Assembly: GCA_001793895.1 (NCBI GenBank)
Contig: MGIT01000001.1
Span: 61,413 to 98,170 of the forward strand
Direction of reading: 5' to 3'
DNA: 36,758 nucleotides
Source of the DNA: Candidatus Wolfebacteria bacterium RIFOXYB1_FULL_54_12
Lineage (GTDB): Bacteria > Patescibacteriota > Minisyncoccia > UBA6257 > UBA9933
The notes beneath the pieces were generated by a model. That model was given only the letters and a program-made list of their open reading frames with translations, did no database searches and had not been told where the DNA came from. Shown one piece after another: positions 4,933-35,531 of the stretch (the stretch's first letter is position 1; the number at the start of each line of letters is the position of its first letter). The translations under genes and the position numbers were made by a program.

Positions 4933-6966
4933 TTACCGGACCTCGGCGGAAAACTTTTTATGCAAAACCTTCGCAATGCGTTCCATATCCTCGTTTACCT
5001 CCGCATCGGTCAATGTACGATCGGCAGATTGAAAAATAATACGAAATGTAAGACTGCGCTTGCGATCCAATTTCTCATTTTCGTATTCGTCGATCAGATC
5101 GACATCTTCAATAAGATTCATGTCCACATGTTGGATATCTTGCATGATATCGCCAACCCGCGCATCGACGCTCACTAAAATAGAAAGGTCTCGCACGATG
5201 GACGGATATTTGGACAGCGGCAGGTATTCATGCTCGGCAACGATCAACTTGGTCAAGGCCGCCATGTCGAGCTCTGCAATACTGCCATGCCATTTCGCAG
5301 GTGCGTTCTTCATCTTCGCCATATACCCCACATGCTCGCCGGCGGATTCGATGCAAAGCATTTCACGCTCATTGACATACGGGCCGGCGAATCGCGGTTC
5401 CCGTTCTTTGTCTTCCACGAACGCAACATCGTGCAAACCGATACGCTCGAACAATTCCCGTAGCAACCCCTTCAGTTCAAAAAATTGCTCCTTGCCCTTG
5501 CCGGCCAATACGACGCCGAACATGTTGTTCTCTTTGACATCCTTATTGTATTTCGCAAATACCCGCCCGATCTCAAACGCGGCGACCGCGTCGAAATAAC
5601 GGCTGTTCGACGCAACATTTTCGTGCAACCCCGCGGCAAGCGTCGGCCGCATAAATACATATTCTTTACTGATCGGATTTTCCAGTTCCACCAATTCCTT
5701 GCGAATATCCGCATCGTGCGCGCCGAAGTGTTCGCCTACAAACGAATGATTATATACTTCGTCCACGCCAAGCGAGACAAGCTCCTTGCGGATCTTGTCT
5801 TTCAATATGATCTCGTCTTCGAAGCCAGACGGAACAAGATGGATGTGCGGCGCGGAAGAACGCAGATTCCCAAAACCGTGCAACCGGACCACTTCTTCAT
5901 AGAGGTCATGCGGATGTTCAATATCGGTACGCAACGGCGGAACGGTCACCAAAAACATGCCCATCGAAACCGGCATTTTTTTATCGATAGGCGCAATCAC
6001 AAAACCAAGCAATTCAAAATACGTCCGCACGGTCTTTGCGTCGAACTGCGTACCCAAAAATGCATTACATTTTGCAAGTTCAAACTTCACCATGCGCTTT
6101 GCCTGCTTTTTCGGATAAATATCCACAGCACCTTTTTGCGTCATGCCCATGATTTCTTGCAAAAGCATTTTCGCGCGGATGGCGCCGAGCGTCGCAAGCT
6201 CGGGACTCAACGTACGCGAAAAACGGGCCGATGCATCAGTCAAAATGTTTACGGCGCGGGATGTCTTATAAATGCTTACCGCATCAAAGTTCGCCGCCTC
6301 GATAACGATGCGCTTGGTGTGCTTGTCTACCTCGGCCAATTTGCCACCCTTGATGCCGGCAATGGCAAGCGGATGTTTTGCATCGGCTATTACCAGCATA
6401 TCGGGCGTCAAGGAAACATGTTGATCATCAAGTGTCGTGATCTTCTCTCCGTCTTTTGCGCATCGGACCACAAGCGATCCTCCCTGTAATTTATCGTAGT
6501 CAAACGCATGCAACGGCTGCCCCGTTTCGAGCATGACGTAATTCATGATGTCGACAACGTTGTTAATGGGGCGCATGCCGCACTCGCCCAGCACGTCTTT
6601 GATCCACTTCGGAGATTCCCCTACCTTAACATTCTCACAATAAGCGCCGATGTAACGCGGACATAGCTCTTTATCTTCCACGGTAACTTTAAGCGGTTGC
6701 TTGCCCGTGGTTGCCACCTGTTTTCCGAGGAGTGTTGCGATTGCGCGCTGTTCGCCAAACTTCACCCCCATGGTAGCGGCGATTTCTTGGGCAACGCCCC
6801 AATGCGACGCAGCGTCACCGTACCGGTTTGCCGGCAGCTTGATGTCGAATGTCTTGCCTTCCACGCCGTCTACTTCAAACGCATACAGCGAAAGATGCCG
6901 CTCAAGCGCCTTGGCATTTTTTATTTCAGGAACCAATTTTTTTAATAATGTATAGGAAAATTTCAT
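4933..6966 (-). CDS. pheT: Phenylalanine-tRNA ligase beta subunit, without EMAP-like domain
   Basis: Structural subunit of the alpha2-beta2 enzyme charging tRNA-Phe. The N-terminus MKFSYTLLKKLVPE runs straight into FDIKLPANRYGDAASHWG, so the inserted tRNA-binding (EMAP/OB) domain of the usual roughly 800-residue protein is missing (677 residues here). Next come the B3/B4 editing domain (about residues 90-260), the B5 domain (about 330-400, TVPPLRTDIEHPHDLYEEVV), the catalytic-like core and the C-terminal ferredoxin-fold anticodon-binding domain (about 585-677, LSKYPSIVRDLSILV). It lies downstream of pheS but is separated from it by about 200 bp of repeats. Confidence 0.96.
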   Translation of the reverse strand: MKFSYTLLKKLVPEIKNAKALERHLSLYAFEVDGVEGKTFDIKLPANRYGDAASHWGVAQEIAATMGVKFGEQRAIATLLGKQVATTGKQPLKVTVEDKELCPRYIGAYCENVKVGESPKWIKDVLGECGMRPINNVVDIMNYVMLETGQPLHAFDYDKLQGGSLVVRCAKDGEKITTLDDQHVSLTPDMLVIADAKHPLAIAGIKGGKLAEVDKHTKRIVIEAANFDAVSIYKTSRAVNILTDASARFSRTLSPELATLGAIRAKMLLQEIMGMTQKGAVDIYPKKQAKRMVKFELAKCNAFLGTQFDAKTVRTYFELLGFVIAPIDKKMPVSMGMFLVTVPPLRTDIEHPHDLYEEVVRLHGFGNLRSSAPHIHLVPSGFEDEIILKDKIRKELVSLGVDEVYNHSFVGEHFGAHDADIRKELVELENPISKEYVFMRPTLAAGLHENVASNSRYFDAVAAFEIGRVFAKYNKDVKENNMFGVVLAGKGKEQFFELKGLLRELFERIGLHDVAFVEDKEREPRFAGPYVNEREMLCIESAGEHVGYMAKMKNAPAKWHGSIAELDMAALTKLIVAEHEYLPLSKYPSIVRDLSILVSVDARVGDIMQDIQHVDMNLIEDVDLIDEYENEKLDRKRSLTFRIIFQSADRTLTDAEVNEDMERIAKVLHKKFSAEVR

Positions 6967-6980
6967 ATGTTTCTACCATC

Positions 6981-7100
6981 CCTAATCTTTTTCCATCGCC
7001 TCTAATCTTTTTCTGTAATCCCTAATCTTTTTCTATCGCCTCTAATCTTTTTCTGTCATTCATCCCACTCTTCTGTCATCCTCAATATTCTTCTGTCATC
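6981..7100. repeat. Six tandem 20-bp units between pheS and pheT
   Basis: Exact 20-bp period with unit starts at 6981, 7001, 7021, 7041, 7061 and 7081. The first four alternate between CCTAATCTTTTTC and TCTAATCTTTTTC cores (a 40-bp super-period); the last two keep TTCTGTCATC. The array ends in a palindromic repeat at 7094 and looks derived from its TGTCATC end. Confidence 0.75.
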
Positions 7101-7157
7101 CCCGCGGAGGCGGGGATCCATGCTTTGAAGTGGATTCCCGCCTCCGCGGGAATGACA
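7094..7157. repeat. Two dispersed palindromic repeats, tail to tail
   Basis: Copies at 7094-7120 (TGTCATCCCCGC...GCGGGGATCCA) and 7131-7157 (TGGATTCCCGCC...GCGGGAATGACA) in opposite orientation. They belong to the family that recurs throughout the window. Confidence 0.85.
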
Positions 7158-7163
7158 AACGAT

Positions 7164-8251: not shown

Positions 8252-8279
8252 TGTCATTCCCGCGCAGGCGGGAATCCAT
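8252..8279. repeat. Dispersed palindromic repeat upstream of pheS
   Basis: TGTCATTCCCGC, a short loop, then GCGGGAATCCA. It lies upstream of the pheS promoter. From here to 8461 I see no further gene. Confidence 0.8.
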
Positions 8280-8461
8280 TTCAATCTTTGTGCGAAACAC
8301 ACAATAAAATGATTATACATGCGCGTGCCACGCAGAGATGGAAGTGAGCCCCGGCTTCCTCCGGTTGGCGGACAGGCTGACAATGCAACTATACATGCCG
8401 TGCGTGTTGCGATTCAAGCCATAATTCAAGAGGGTATATCGCAATAAACCGACCGGGCAAT

Positions 8462-11460: not shown

Positions 11461-11836
11461 TGTCATTCCCGCTTCCCATTCTGTCATTCCCGCGAAGCAT
11501 GCCACGTGGAAAGTAGCAACTTTCTTTACGTGGGCGGGAATCCAGCATTCTGCCCCACGCGCATTGTCATTCCCGCGCAGGCGGGAATCCAGCATTTTAA
11601 TTAGAGATTAGAAATTAATAATTAGAAATTCCCCTCCTATACCCCATACCCTATACTGTATACTTTATACTGTATACTTTATATCCCCCTCCGCACATTG
11701 CTTCGCCCGCCCGTAGCTTTAGTGAAGGAGGGTCATTCCCGCGAGTAAGGACTCGGCCTCGACTATCTGCCATTCCGAACTTGTTTCGGAATCTTATTGT
11801 TTTATCACAAGATCCTGAATCAAGTTCAGGATGACA
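11461..11836. repeat. Cluster of palindromic repeats in a gene-free stretch
   Basis: The 550 bp between the antitoxin and the S24 peptidase gene carry no credible gene. Seen here: two half or imperfect copies at 11461-11535 (one with a long CCACGT...ACGTGG hairpin), a full copy at 11565-11591, and CCGAACTTGTTTCGG and ATCCTGAATCAAGTTCAGGAT forms at about 11770-11836. Confidence 0.75.
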
Positions 11837-11957: not shown

Positions 11958-12368
11958 TTAGTTCTCAAGTGGACGAACAACCTCCTGCACGATCCCCTGT
12001 ATCTGCACTCCCTCGGTAAGATAGCGCGGCTGATGCTCCGGATTTGTCGAGCGCGGTTTAAGCACAATTTTATTTCCCTCCCGATGGAACTCTTTGACCG
12101 TCGCTTCGTCATCGATCAGCGCGACGACCAGATCGTTCTCCCGCGCCGTCAGCTTTTGCTTGCACAAAATAAGATCACCATCGTTGATCCCCGCCGCATT
12201 CATGGAATCCCCGGTTGCGCGCAATATGAAATACTGCAAACCTCCCTGCAGCTTCTCCTTTGCCACGGGTATCATTTTCTCAACATTCTCTTCCGCAAAA
12301 AGCGGCGCCCCGCACGGAGCGGAACCAACTAAAGGAACATTGATCATTTCTTGCCCAAATAACACCAT
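11958..12368 (-). CDS. UmuD-like S24 peptidase (self-cleaving SOS-type protein)
   Basis: 136-residue Peptidase_S24 protein with no helix-turn-helix, the size and plan of UmuD rather than LexA. The probable cleavage site is Cys19-Gly20 (SAPCGAP), the nucleophile Ser55 (ATGDSMNAAG) and the general base Lys92. The distances Cys-Ser (36) and Ser-Lys (37) equal those of E. coli UmuD. Such proteins cleave themselves on RecA filaments and then form the subunit of a mutagenic polymerase. No umuC/dinB gene is adjacent. Confidence 0.85.
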   Translation of the reverse strand: MVLFGQEMINVPLVGSAPCGAPLFAEENVEKMIPVAKEKLQGGLQYFILRATGDSMNAAGINDGDLILCKQKLTARENDLVVALIDDEATVKEFHREGNKIVLKPRSTNPEHQPRYLTEGVQIQGIVQEVVRPLEN

Positions 12369-12634: not shown

Positions 12635-12682
12635 TAAAAACGCTTAATAATATTGCTATAGCAATATTATTAAGCGTTTTTA
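12635..12682. repeat. 48-bp perfect palindrome, copy 1
   Basis: Perfect inverted repeat centred between 12658 and 12659, core GCTATAGC, arms AACGCTTAATAATATT. Its inner 44 bp are identical to the copy at 13380-13423. It lies 27 bp downstream of the PaaX/Cas2-like gene. The T-run ends mean it could also act as a terminator. Confidence 0.9.
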
Positions 12683-12709
12683 ATTCCTTCCTTTCATACG
12701 CTATAAATA

Positions 12710-13339
12710 TTATGCAACATCAAAAAATTTCCGAAGGTTGTCATCCTCCTCAATCTTCGCCTCCGCGATGATCGTCATTTCTTTCACAGCAAGCCCAAAA
12801 AACTCCCGCAGAAGCACGGCCTCTCGCTCGAAATCATACGGATACACCCACACGCTTTTCTGCAACTGATAAAATCCCAACTCTCTTAATTTGCCCCGCA
12901 ACGCCTCCCGCTTGATCTTATGCTTTTCGGCGATATCAAAGATCAATATGCGCCACTTTTTATCCCACTTCTTATCTTTCCTGATCTTCAGGTCGTTGAT
13001 CTGATACTTACCGGCCATCCGCTTACCCTCCCCGGTCAATGCAATGAACACCTGCCCGTTCCTATCCTCAAATTCAATAAACCCCTTACTTTGCAGATAA
13101 TAAAATGTATTGCGCAGCTGAGCCTTCTTCTCAGGATCGCTAAGCGAATCATCCCCGGACAACAACTTCCCAAGCGCAGGGTAGACGACTTTGGTAACAA
13201 AATACGGCGAGGTCATCGCGATAGCGATGCCTCCACTAATCAGCAAAAAACGAAGAATCTTCCCCGTCAGATCCTTGGCCTTATCTCTTCTCGAAGCCCC
13301 ACTGATTCGCCTTTGTTTGCCATCAACCCTTTTTTTCAT
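12710..13339 (-). CDS. PaaX/Cas2-like protein with winged helix
   Basis: 209 residues. A basic N-terminus is followed by a hydrophobic segment (about 28-57), a winged-helix-like region (about 70-112, LRNTFYYLQSKGFIEFEDRNGQ) and a C-terminal Cas2-like ferredoxin fold (about 127-205): WRILIFDIAEKHKIKREALR, then LGFYQLQKSVWVYPYD. Asp135 aligns with the Cas2 metal-binding Asp. The domain is shared by Cas2 nucleases and the C-terminus of PaaX repressors. There is no cas1 gene or CRISPR array, so a regulatory role is more likely. The gene is bracketed by two identical palindromes. Confidence 0.75.
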   Translation of the reverse strand: MKKRVDGKQRRISGASRRDKAKDLTGKILRFLLISGGIAIAMTSPYFVTKVVYPALGKLLSGDDSLSDPEKKAQLRNTFYYLQSKGFIEFEDRNGQVFIALTGEGKRMAGKYQINDLKIRKDKKWDKKWRILIFDIAEKHKIKREALRGKLRELGFYQLQKSVWVYPYDFEREAVLLREFFGLAVKEMTIIAEAKIEEDDNLRKFFDVA

Positions 13340-13373
13340 ATTTCATACTTCATGCGCATGTGTATTATATTCA

Positions 13374-13379
13374 TTATAG
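13374..13379 (-). promoter_or_regulatory. -10 box of the PaaX/Cas2-like gene abutting the palindrome
   Basis: TATAAT on the minus strand directly next to palindrome copy 2, so the -35 region lies inside the palindrome. That is the geometry of an autoregulatory operator. Confidence 0.5.
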
Positions 13380-13423
13380 AAAACGCTTAATAATATTGCT
13401 ATAGCAATATTATTAAGCGTTTT
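13380..13423. repeat. 44-bp perfect palindrome, copy 2
   Basis: Perfect inverted repeat with core GCTATAGC, the same sequence as copy 1 over all 44 bp. It lies 40 bp upstream of the PaaX/Cas2-like start codon and overlaps its promoter. Confidence 0.9.
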
Positions 13424-16856: not shown

Positions 16857-16876
16857 AAAATAAAAGCTTACTATAG

Positions 16877-16919
16877 CTTACCAAATTCCACCTTATTTAT
16901 AAACCAACCAAAAATCCCA
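16877..16919 (-). repeat. Island boundary repeat, copy E (before the MmeI-like gene)
   Basis: Plus-strand CTTACCAAATTCCACC, then TTATTTATAAACCAACCAAA, then AATCCC. It ends 20 nt before the MmeI-like start; on the coding strand TATAGT follows directly. The terminator hairpin half seen in copies C and D is lost. Confidence 0.85.
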
Positions 16920-16971
16920 TATTTTATAGATATTTAATTTAATACATTCACTTCCTGAATATAATGGTTAT

Positions 16972-18538: not shown

Positions 18539-18584
18539 GAAATTTGTTAATTAACCCCGCATTCTCAACTTAAGTTTTATAATC

Positions 18585-18656
18585 TTACCAAATTCCACCC
18601 CATTAAGAAACCAACCAAAAATCCCGCAGGGATGCGGGGGGGTCTGGTTGGTTTCC
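18585..18656 (-). repeat. Island boundary repeat, copy D, with terminator
   Basis: Plus-strand CTTACCAAATTCCACC, then CATTAAGAAACCAACC. The distal end holds the hairpin CCCGCA-TCCC-TGCGGG followed by ATTTTT on the minus strand, nested within an outer GAAACCAACC/GGTTGGTTTC pair. It ends the 18734 gene and precedes the receiver gene. Confidence 0.88.
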
Positions 18657-19057: not shown

Positions 19058-19113
19058 ACATAAAAATATTTTATTAATTATTACCCCTCTCTAATTGCAA
19101 CATCTTTCTTAAG

Positions 19114-19170
19114 CTTACCAAATCCCACCCCATTTTGAAACAAACAAAAAATCCCACAGAAATGCGGGGG
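19114..19170 (-). repeat. Island boundary repeat, copy C, with terminator
   Basis: Plus-strand CTTACCAAATCCCACC, then CATTTTGAAACAAAC. Minus-strand hairpin CCCGCA-TTTC-TGTGGG followed by ATTTTTT terminates the methyltransferase unit. Confidence 0.87.
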
Positions 19171-21294: not shown

Positions 21295-21342
21295 AGAATA
21301 GAACTTCCCTCAATTCGCCTCTCAATTTATATATCTTAATAT

Positions 21343-21390
21343 CTTACCAAATCCCACCCCATTTATAAACCAACAAAAAATCACGCGGGG
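21343..21390 (-). repeat. Island boundary repeat, copy B (before parB-like/dam-like)
   Basis: Plus-strand CTTACCAAATCCCACC, then CATTTATAAACCAAC. The terminator half is degenerate (AATCACGCGGGG). Confidence 0.85.
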
Positions 21391-21417
21391 ATAATGGATT
21401 TTCCCGGCACATTTAAT

Positions 21418-22242: not shown

Positions 22243-22998
22243 TTATTTAATTTTATCCTGAATGCCTTGGGGGATCTCTCTTGGCCAACAGATAAATTCT
22301 CGAATCTTTTTAATATCAAAAATAGGGACTCCCGAATTGGCGAGCTCAACCGAAACCCTCCGAGCAGTTGCAAATAAAAATACTTTTTTACCGTCATTAA
22401 GTAGCTGGATGACTGGATCGGCAAAATCACTATCACCGCTCCATAAAATAAAGCTCTTCGTATGGTTATTACCAAAATCAAAAAGCATATCCCTGCCTAT
22501 CTCAACATCGAAATTACACTTTTTATCCTCAATATAAAAAATCCCTTGTTTATTAAGATCTAATAATTTTCGATTAAGGAATTCTATAGTCTCGACAGAA
22601 AGCTTTAATAATAAAGCCTTCTTAATGAAATGTTCTAATAGCGCTGGCGAATTTGATTGGATACTCGTAGCATCGATGGAAATGTTCATTATCTTTACCG
22701 GCTTCGTTTTTAAACCATAACGCAATTCGCTTGCAGCTCGTATCCACTCCTCGGATCTTTGATCTCCATTTAATGTTCCGTAATATATTTTTGTTTCTTT
22801 TACCTGGTCGAATGAATCGAGAAATTGTTTTAATCTTTTTAAATCAATATGCCAACCAAGACGATCCTGCCAATGAATGACATTAGCATAGTCAATATAA
22901 ATATTAGAGTTACCATCAAAAATTTCCTCCAGCTCAATAATAGTCTGTGGGAATATTTTTCCTAATTTTATAAGCTTATCCGTTCGTGGGTTAAACAT
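22243..22998 (-). CDS. NYN domain (PIN-like) ribonuclease
   Basis: 251 residues from ATG 22998. The NYN/LabA-type metal-binding acidic residues are visible: Asp in IYIDYANVIHW, Asp in CNFDVEIGRDML and two in LWSGDSDFADPVIQLL. The family cuts RNA and occurs in toxin and defence contexts. The frame extends nine codons upstream, but those are coded by boundary repeat A, so 22998 is preferred. It is the first gene of the island in the direction of transcription. Confidence 0.85.
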   Translation of the reverse strand: MFNPRTDKLIKLGKIFPQTIIELEEIFDGNSNIYIDYANVIHWQDRLGWHIDLKRLKQFLDSFDQVKETKIYYGTLNGDQRSEEWIRAASELRYGLKTKPVKIMNISIDATSIQSNSPALLEHFIKKALLLKLSVETIEFLNRKLLDLNKQGIFYIEDKKCNFDVEIGRDMLFDFGNNHTKSFILWSGDSDFADPVIQLLNDGKKVFLFATARRVSVELANSGVPIFDIKKIREFICWPREIPQGIQDKIK

Positions 22999-23005
22999 AC
23001 TCAAT

Positions 23006-23036
23006 CCTACCAAATTCCACCACATTTATAAACCGG
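23006..23036 (-). repeat. Island boundary repeat, copy A (before the NYN gene)
   Basis: Plus-strand CCTACCAAATTCCACC, then ACATTTATAAACC; truncated, and only seven bases from the NYN start codon. Confidence 0.8.
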
Positions 23037-23043
23037 GCCTAAA

Positions 23044-23160
23044 GGGGTCAGGTACCTTTGATTTGCCTTCCCCGCTTGCGTACAGGTCAAGGAAGCTCTG
23101 GATTCCCGTTTTCACGGGAATGACAGCTCGATAAGATCCTGAAACAAGTTCAGGATGACA
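23044..23160. repeat. GGTCAGGTACC motif and two palindromic repeats
   Basis: GGTCAGGTACCTTTGAT at 23046-23062 (recurs at 23979), then palindromic repeats at 23099-23125 (TTCCCGTTTTCACGGGAA) and 23135-23160 (ATCCTGAAACAAGTTCAGGAT). Confidence 0.75.
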
Positions 23161-26200: not shown

Positions 26201-26426
26201 TGGATTCCCGTTTTCACGGGAATGACACAGGGGCTGGATCCCGTGTCGGAGCACGGGATGACAATACGGGGATACTGGATTCCCGTTTTCACGGGAATGA
26301 CACAAATACTGGATTCCGGCTCGGAGGCCGGAATGACAATGCGAAGGTGGGATTCTTACTCAACGAGATTCCGGATCAAGTTCAGGATGACAATGCGACG
26401 AGATCCTGAAACAAGTTCAGGATGAC
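26201..26426. repeat. Cluster of six dispersed palindromic repeats
   Basis: Consecutive units with different stems: TTCCCGTTTTCACGGGAA twice, ATCCCGTG/CACGGGAT, TTCCGGCTCGGAGGCCGGAA, and two CTTGAACTTG-type units (AAGTTCAGGATGAC). All share the outer TGGAT...ATGACA ends. Confidence 0.85.
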
Positions 26427-28154: not shown

Positions 28155-28273
28155 TGGATTCCCGCCTGCGCGGGAATGACAATACTATAGATTCCGGCCT
28201 CCGCCGGAATGACACAGGCTCTGGATTCCCGCTCGAAGTTTTATCCCGAGCTTGTCGAAGGACGGGAATTACA
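28155..28273. repeat. Three palindromic repeats upstream of the helicase
   Basis: Copies at about 28155-28181, 28189-28214 and 28223-28273, the last with a GCTCGAAG...CTTGTCGAAG loop. All are in the TGGATT...ATGACA orientation. Confidence 0.82.
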
Positions 28274-34418: not shown

Positions 34419-34430
34419 ACTATTTATGCG

Positions 34431-34495
34431 TCATTCCCGCGGAGGCGGGAATCTATGCCATTTGGACTGGATTCCCGCCTCCGCGGGAATGACAG
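34431..34495. repeat. Palindromic repeat pair upstream of htpX
   Basis: TCATTCCCGCGGAGGCGGGA at 34431-34450 and the inverse GGATTCCCGCCTCCGCGGGA near 34469, in opposite orientation. Confidence 0.83.
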
Positions 34496-35454: not shown

Positions 35455-35521
35455 TGTCATTCCGGCCTTGAGCCGGAATCCAGTTTTTTCATAATGGATT
35501 CCCGCCTCCGCGGGAATGACA
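35455..35521. repeat. Palindromic repeat pair between rpsF and ssb
   Basis: TGTCATTCCGGC...GCCGGAATCCAG at 35455-35483 and TGGATTCCCGCC...GCGGGAATGACA at about 35495-35521, inserted within a conserved operon. Confidence 0.84.
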
Positions 35522-35531
35522 AAGATCGACG

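Follow-up and report, generated by a model that had tools for sequence, protein, structure and literature searches.

REP and REPIN repeats, together with the RAYT tyrosine transposases, are known from Pseudomonas and E. coli (PMC3116915, PMC3733652) and are the closest described systems to the locus reported here. At the protein level, the closest counterparts are PaaX of E. coli and CRISPR-Cas Cas2, and the layout of the locus also recalls IS200/IS605 elements. We analysed a PaaX_M gene in a 36,758-nucleotide stretch of DNA (hereafter the window) from Candidatus Wolfebacteria bacterium RIFOXYB1_FULL_54_12, a member of the Patescibacteria, which have very small genomes and few regulators. PaaX_M genes and their palindromes look like an undescribed protein-plus-repeat system; the literature searched, with subscription papers and preprints largely outside it, held no account of PaaX/Cas2 with palindromes or REP in candidate phyla.

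A PaaX_M gene between two copies of one palindrome

The gene, its leader and the palindromes on either side are located in the window as follows.

12710..13339, minus strand: PaaX_M gene, encoding a 209-aa protein with a winged helix and a PaaX_M (Cas2-like) domain
13340..13379, minus strand: leader/promoter stretch, CTATAATGAATATAATACAC..., with two TATAAT-like boxes adjoining the palindrome
13380..13423: perfect 44-bp palindrome upstream of the gene, with core GCTATAGC; putative operator for the gene itself, at its promoter
12635..12682: perfect 48-bp palindrome downstream of the gene, 27 bp from the stop codon

The original prediction placed one perfect palindrome at the promoter and a matching one 27 bp past the stop codon. 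Both were confirmed at these positions, and the identity they share covers 45 bases. Because the gene lies on the minus strand, the copy at 13380-13423 is the upstream one, 40 bp from the ATG, and the copy at 12635-12682 (TAAAAACGCTTAATAATATTGCTATAGCAATATTATTAAGCGTTTTTA) is the downstream one. The local match between the two flanks scored 45 versus approximately 11 for shuffled flanks, and a chance origin of this match is excluded. The DNA hairpin z-scores of the two copies of the palindrome (P1, spelled AAAACGCTTAATAATATTGCTATAGC...) were -9.6 and -9.2. P1 has the form of a GC-rich stem with a U-tract, and the A/T tracts of the downstream copy resemble those of a bidirectional terminator; a scan did not call it.

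A search of the same genome (G000) recovered a third exact copy of P1 and no further copies within 3 mismatches. This third copy is a solo palindrome (G000:C2:16646-16689), found between the convergent ends of a DUF167/yggU-like gene and a metal-ABC-permease gene (both named by eye). The genome contains two PaaX_M genes only, the window gene and one on contig C4; the latter is bracketed by a different palindrome (P2, TTTGCTGTCCAAATGTACG-RY-CGTACATTTGGACAGCAAA), which has two more solo copies in the genome.

Other features were recorded in and around the window. The window gene adjoins a sequence encoding a LexA/UmuD-like S24 protein without an HTH match (window 11958-12368), and in genome G003 an ORF resembling a LexA-type HTH protein is found between two palindromes beside a PaaX_M gene (L165 1925-2392). 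Four to five copies of CTTACCAAATTCCACCCCATTTATAAACCAACCAAAAATCCC are present in the window (16868-16933, 18575-18640, 19105-19170, 21334-21399 and 22993-23034), as is a short tandem array with a 20-bp period (ATCTTTTTCTATCGCCTCTA) at 6965-7064. A second dispersed family, the interrupted palindrome GGATTCCCGCCTCCGCGGGAATGACA, occurs at least 11 times in the window; sister genomes also contain many copies, and it is a candidate REP family.

7132-7158, 8252-8288, 11565-11601, 23100-23126, 26202-26303, 28156-28215, 34429-34495, 35496-35522 and others, window: copies of GGATTCCCGCCTCCGCGGGAATGACA

Pfam assigned the window protein to PaaX_M, with a match to the central Cas2-like domain of PaaX (PF20803) at 1.7e-19 and 70 bits, against a cut-off of 24. 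Scores for the TIGR02277 equivalog (36.7 bits) and the Cas2 family TIGR01573 (18.6 bits) were below their cut-offs of 264.55 and 24.5, and PF09827 was matched at E<=0.01 by 20 of 25 relatives. The N-terminal (PF07848) and C-terminal (PF08223) PaaX domains, both present in E. coli PaaX, were absent from the window protein and from the 25 relatives. Neither the window protein nor its relatives matched the Y1 family PF01797, which was matched by a genuine Y1 protein of the same genus used as a control. A fold search was run with the model of a relative (pLDDT 69), the model of the window protein being poor (pLDDT 50). It suggested similarity to E. coli W PaaX, PadR-type winged helices and Cas2, all with weak E-values; E. 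coli W PaaX (8a39) was the best structural match by this measure, itself weak. The modelled winged helix aligned with PadR at Z 11.7, and the VIA-align list was taken up by the winged-helix part. The window protein is not simply PaaX or Cas2. The proposal of a Cas2-fold protein without cas1 was borne out, Cas1 (PF01867) being found in none of the 22 genomes sampled from the window's family and in 9 of 14 control genomes.

The conserved FDI Asp and the QKSVW motif are both present in the window protein, and residues D131, R140, R144, Q156, S158, V159 and W160 (reference numbering) are invariant among relatives. Invariance of the Cas2-type Asp and Arg residues in 25/25 aligned relatives would fit a nuclease of the Cas2/VapD type that serves as a toxin or in defence, cleaving hairpins of DNA or RNA except while it occupies its own palindromes. 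The absence of the FDIPE motif from E. coli PaaX and the presence of several diverged paralogues per genome point the same way. We nevertheless hold this to be highly improbable: the conserved residues may be structural, the gene has no antitoxin or partner gene, PADLOC returned no system beyond weak Cas2 domain matches, and no relatives were found in three viral-contig scans or on plasmids. A phage or plasmid origin was rejected on the same searches.

Private palindromes in the family and the phylum

The 22 family genomes contain 45 PaaX_M genes, distributed over 20 of them, and 41 of these genes were testable with both flanks readable. With dyads scored at 14/20 or better and centred on CG..CG or CTATAG, 34 genes had a dyad upstream, 36 downstream and 32 on both sides, compared with 2 of 229 equally sized control windows. 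Of the nine misses, most still had at least one dyad or else a core-bearing site in degraded form. The two flanks of a gene match each other: own upstream and downstream flanks scored 20 or more at 27 of 40 genes versus 19 of 1560 swapped pairs, the strongest of which came from related copies of the same gene. Orthologues were expected to carry palindromes if the arrangement was meaningful; they do, and the two copies at each gene match, the part that failed being a common spelling, which differs between subfamilies.

Across the phylum, PaaX_M genes were detected in 90 of 287 sampled genomes, with up to 11 per genome. A flank score of at least 18 was obtained at 17 of 38 loci sampled outside the window's family with both flanks present, versus 2 of 1406 swaps, and the cores in these other families include CGATCG, CGGCCG, CTATAG and CTCGAG. 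Eight PaaX_M genes sampled from genome G133 have eight palindrome spellings; because these genes are only ~45-65% identical to one another and each has its own spelling, the family appears to be old, every gene having a private site, and not the product of recent copying. A Mantel test showed that palindrome distances correlate with protein distances (rho 0.30, 0/2000). A contig search with one protein as query returned three loci. In the window's family, bracketing by private palindromes is the rule, and it is common across the phylum; the bracketed window gene belongs to a system and is no accident.

Two further observations concern individual loci. Some PaaX_M frames in G239, G081, G292 and G045 contain an in-frame stop codon and are perhaps decayed copies. 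In G020, two palindromes of the TTGGTGTCCAAAT subfamily bracket an unrelated gene (L090 2173-2890; 5'-nucleotidase-like by eye), which is flanked by two apparent endonuclease-III-type genes.

The palindromes are 34-48 bp long, nearly loop-free and mostly single rather than doublets. Their core is CGRYCG, with CTATAG in the window palindrome, and CG-RY-CG was invariant in 28 centre-aligned copies. Dyad positions in these copies were paired in 96.8% of cases, 212 of 532 cells held double changes and 17 of 19 positions varied on both arms. Outer arms are gene-specific. When copies are compared genome by genome, the outer arms are stable, the core is fixed and the 5-bp linker (+/-4 to 8 from the centre) is most variable, approximately half of its changes being compensated on the opposite arm; families were grouped by their outer arms, so the conservation of these arms is partly built in and the linker-versus-core contrast alone is non-circular.

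Mismatches of the G.T type (22) showed no clear excess over A.C (14), indicating that the constraint acts on the symmetry of the DNA and not on a transcript. An RNA hairpin as the selected unit was rejected, G.U pairs being rare and not clearly commoner than A.C; Rfam returned only sub-threshold miRNA-like matches of the sort given by any perfect hairpin. The symmetry may reflect selection for a hairpin, selection for a dimer site, or template-switch repair, which makes and keeps perfect hairpins from imperfect palindromes (PMC8794818, PMC7202029) and could yield symmetry without selection.

Since template switching can maintain perfect hairpins (PMC8794818), the two palindromes could be bidirectional intrinsic terminators that bracket the gene by chance and are kept identical by this process or by gene conversion. 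The A and T tracts of the window palindrome agree with such an origin. So does a solo site (site A) where G000 and G020 carry the window palindrome, with one paired change, in place of the ordinary terminators of G018 and G019. The gene-specific pairing largely refutes this explanation, to which we attach very little probability. A fixed CGRYCG core, gene-specific arms and a statistical tie to PaaX_M genes need a protein, the U-tract is absent from most other palindrome subfamilies, true terminators adjoin some solo palindromes, and no G.U preference was seen.

Promoter overlap, solo copies and their turnover

Alignment of upstream regions showed that the upstream palindromes end within a few bases of the -10 region. 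At the window gene the TATAAT-like boxes directly follow the palindrome, and in many relatives TAGTAAAAT is the end of a palindrome arm. In the GTCC subfamily, TTGGAC is part of the arm and lies 17 bp before TATACT; the start codon follows shortly after. A generic promoter scan made no call at the window leader/promoter. Because the upstream palindrome overlaps the promoter, autoregulation of PaaX_M genes is likely. The original prediction of self-regulation through flanking sites, to which the protein is predicted to bind, is well supported by the gene-specific pairs and the promoter-borne upstream copy.

The upstream copy on the promoter and the combination of PaaX_M with a winged helix, which is a regulator architecture, also suit an ordinary specific transcription regulator. 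The protein would then be a repressor with few operators, two of them around its own gene, where they perhaps act by looping, and a handful at other places; the solo copies would be a small regulon or transcription roadblocks, nothing would be mobile and the arms would co-evolve with the protein by selection.

Genome searches with a covariance model built from the palindrome (R1) found copies in 20 of the 22 family genomes, and palindrome number tracked PaaX_M gene number across these 22 (rho 0.78, p 2e-5). Among the 287 phylum genomes, 18 of 90 with PaaX_M genes were palindrome-positive versus 2 of 197 in which no PaaX_M gene was detected (Fisher p 2.5e-8). For many solo copies, the matching pair belongs to a gene of that genome; there are also orphan solos, one of which, in G000, matches, over the compared palindrome, the pair of a G018 gene not found in G000. 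Solos number approximately 1-10 per element, far fewer than classical REPs, and lie in intergenic DNA, with a stop codon often no more than 40 bp away. In G021, a palindrome is present within 20 bp of the start of contigs C46 and C52 (first 60 bases); because these contigs begin near one, the repeats probably break assemblies and so are undercounted.

Of the 35 solo sites that were classified, only two are in divergent (double-promoter) gaps, and many are by stop codons or convergent genes, which is not what a regulator would lead one to expect, with the proviso that the gap types do not differ significantly from background intergenic space. An enrichment between convergent genes was rejected on a similar same-locus background (convergent p 0.11, divergent p 0.35). 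Comparison of sister genomes revealed both stable and variable sites. Site B occupies the same place in G000 and G020, with paired arm changes. Solo gain or loss was seen at sites whose flanking genes are ~90-95% identical. The solo at site C is present in G000 and absent from G020, and site E is without a copy in G000 but carries a tandem of two, from two families, in G020, the flanking genes being ~91-94% identical in both cases. The intergenic DNA around the variable solo sites is unstable in general, and no clean insertion junction or target-site duplication was found at the compared sister sites.

Vertical inheritance of the genes at fixed loci, and the retention of site B in two sister species, are in keeping with a regulator. 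Differences in solo presence between close sisters are not; neither are unconserved linkers that are often symmetrical, a symmetry that protein contacts do not need, nor an operator past its own stop codon at nearly every gene, which would be unusual. A pure regulator with scattered operators is a strong rival, about which we are somewhat doubtful.

The locus had also been proposed to be a small mobile element, and its anatomy is that of a minimal insertion sequence: ~740 bp, one ORF, a promoter in the left end and a right end just past the stop codon. The Cas2-like protein would then be the transposase of a palindrome-gene-palindrome unit that moves as a whole. G000 and G020 have the P1 unit, G018 and G019 lack it, and solos could be relic ends. 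A search for further copies of the unit, recent paralogues, duplicated targets and empty sites did not support whole-unit transposition. The genome has no second copy of the unit, the divergence of the eight G133 genes argues against recent copying, and G000 and G020 carry the window gene in syntenic positions. Likewise, the GTCC gene occupies one fixed locus in all four species of the genus, target-site duplications are missing, and relatives did not appear on viral contigs or plasmids. A clean empty site for the window gene in G018 or G019 was rejected, gene order being different there, with lexA and tspO swapped in G019. Bracketed units recur in this and related genomes, without clean empty sites; turnover is seen in some solo palindromes, and movement of the whole unit is quite improbable.

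At one syntenic place, G018 and G020 have a bracketed PaaX_M gene and G000 and G019 a REP-type Y1 tyrosine transposase, next to the same downstream gene.

L159 and L151: syntenic place with the PaaX_M gene
L164 3177-3761 and L035 1147-1740: syntenic place with the Y1 transposase

A candidate mechanism and its relation to known systems

We give about an even chance to the window gene belonging to a large family, found in Patescibacteria, of DNA-binding genes that are self-bracketed, regulate themselves and have REP-like dispersed palindromes. Judging from the sequence comparisons, the protein, with its winged helix and Cas2-like domain, would recognise a long palindrome with gene-specific outer arms and a CGRYCG or CTATAG centre. 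On the upstream copy it would occupy its own promoter and repress its own gene. The post-stop copy and the intergenic solos would together form a small gene-specific population of REP-like sites, dependent on the protein and quickly gained and lost, and the palindromes may spread by a hairpin-type copying step aided by the protein. A more far-reaching proposal is that of a new HUH-independent repeat-propagating system, widespread in Patescibacteria and with mutually exclusive paralogue specificities, in which the protein recognises and spreads its own perfect palindromes via a DNA hairpin; this we consider unlikely.

Many Patescibacteria carry 1-11 such genes, commonly flanked on both sides by a private palindrome, which amounts to a ready set of many natural protein-site pairs with differing specificities. 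The proteins are small and the sites base-exact, so that binding and specificity are directly testable in vitro or in E. coli reporters. The family may be a missing link that joins regulators to Cas2-type nucleases, and would offer a second, HUH-independent route to REP-like repeats.

Like E. coli PaaX, the window-type proteins combine the central Cas2-like domain with a winged helix. They are shorter (~200 versus 316 aa), keep the Cas2 Asp and lack both terminal PaaX domains; no paa genes were noted near the window gene, and E. coli paaX has no bracketing palindromes. With CRISPR-Cas Cas2 they share a ferredoxin-like Cas2 domain and the conserved Asp, whereas the winged-helix fusion and the absence of Cas1 from all 22 family genomes set them apart. 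As in IS200/IS605, one small gene lies between palindromic ends, which in IS200/IS605 are subterminal hairpins; here, both ends are identical full palindromes, without a Y1 transposase or a multicopy unit.

The differences from REP/RAYT lie in both protein and repeat. The protein has a winged helix and a Cas2-like fold, without a Y1/HUH match. The repeats are long, nearly loop-free perfect palindromes with a CGRYCG core and few copies, the solos are mostly single and not inverted doublets (REPINs), and no GTAG-type tag was seen in the aligned copies. REPs also show G.T pairing (PMC3733652), of which there is no excess here. As to repeat mobility, sister sites C and E differ in the presence of the repeat, with no clean junctions. 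Because the protein is no Y1 transposase and mobility is unproven, the PaaX_M/palindrome system is not a REP/RAYT system, but it works like one. In both, single-copy, vertically inherited and non-identical protein genes are each flanked by their own palindromic repeat, this repeat is also dispersed in intergenic DNA, often near the 3' ends of genes, and several independent families exist per genome in which protein and repeat co-evolve.
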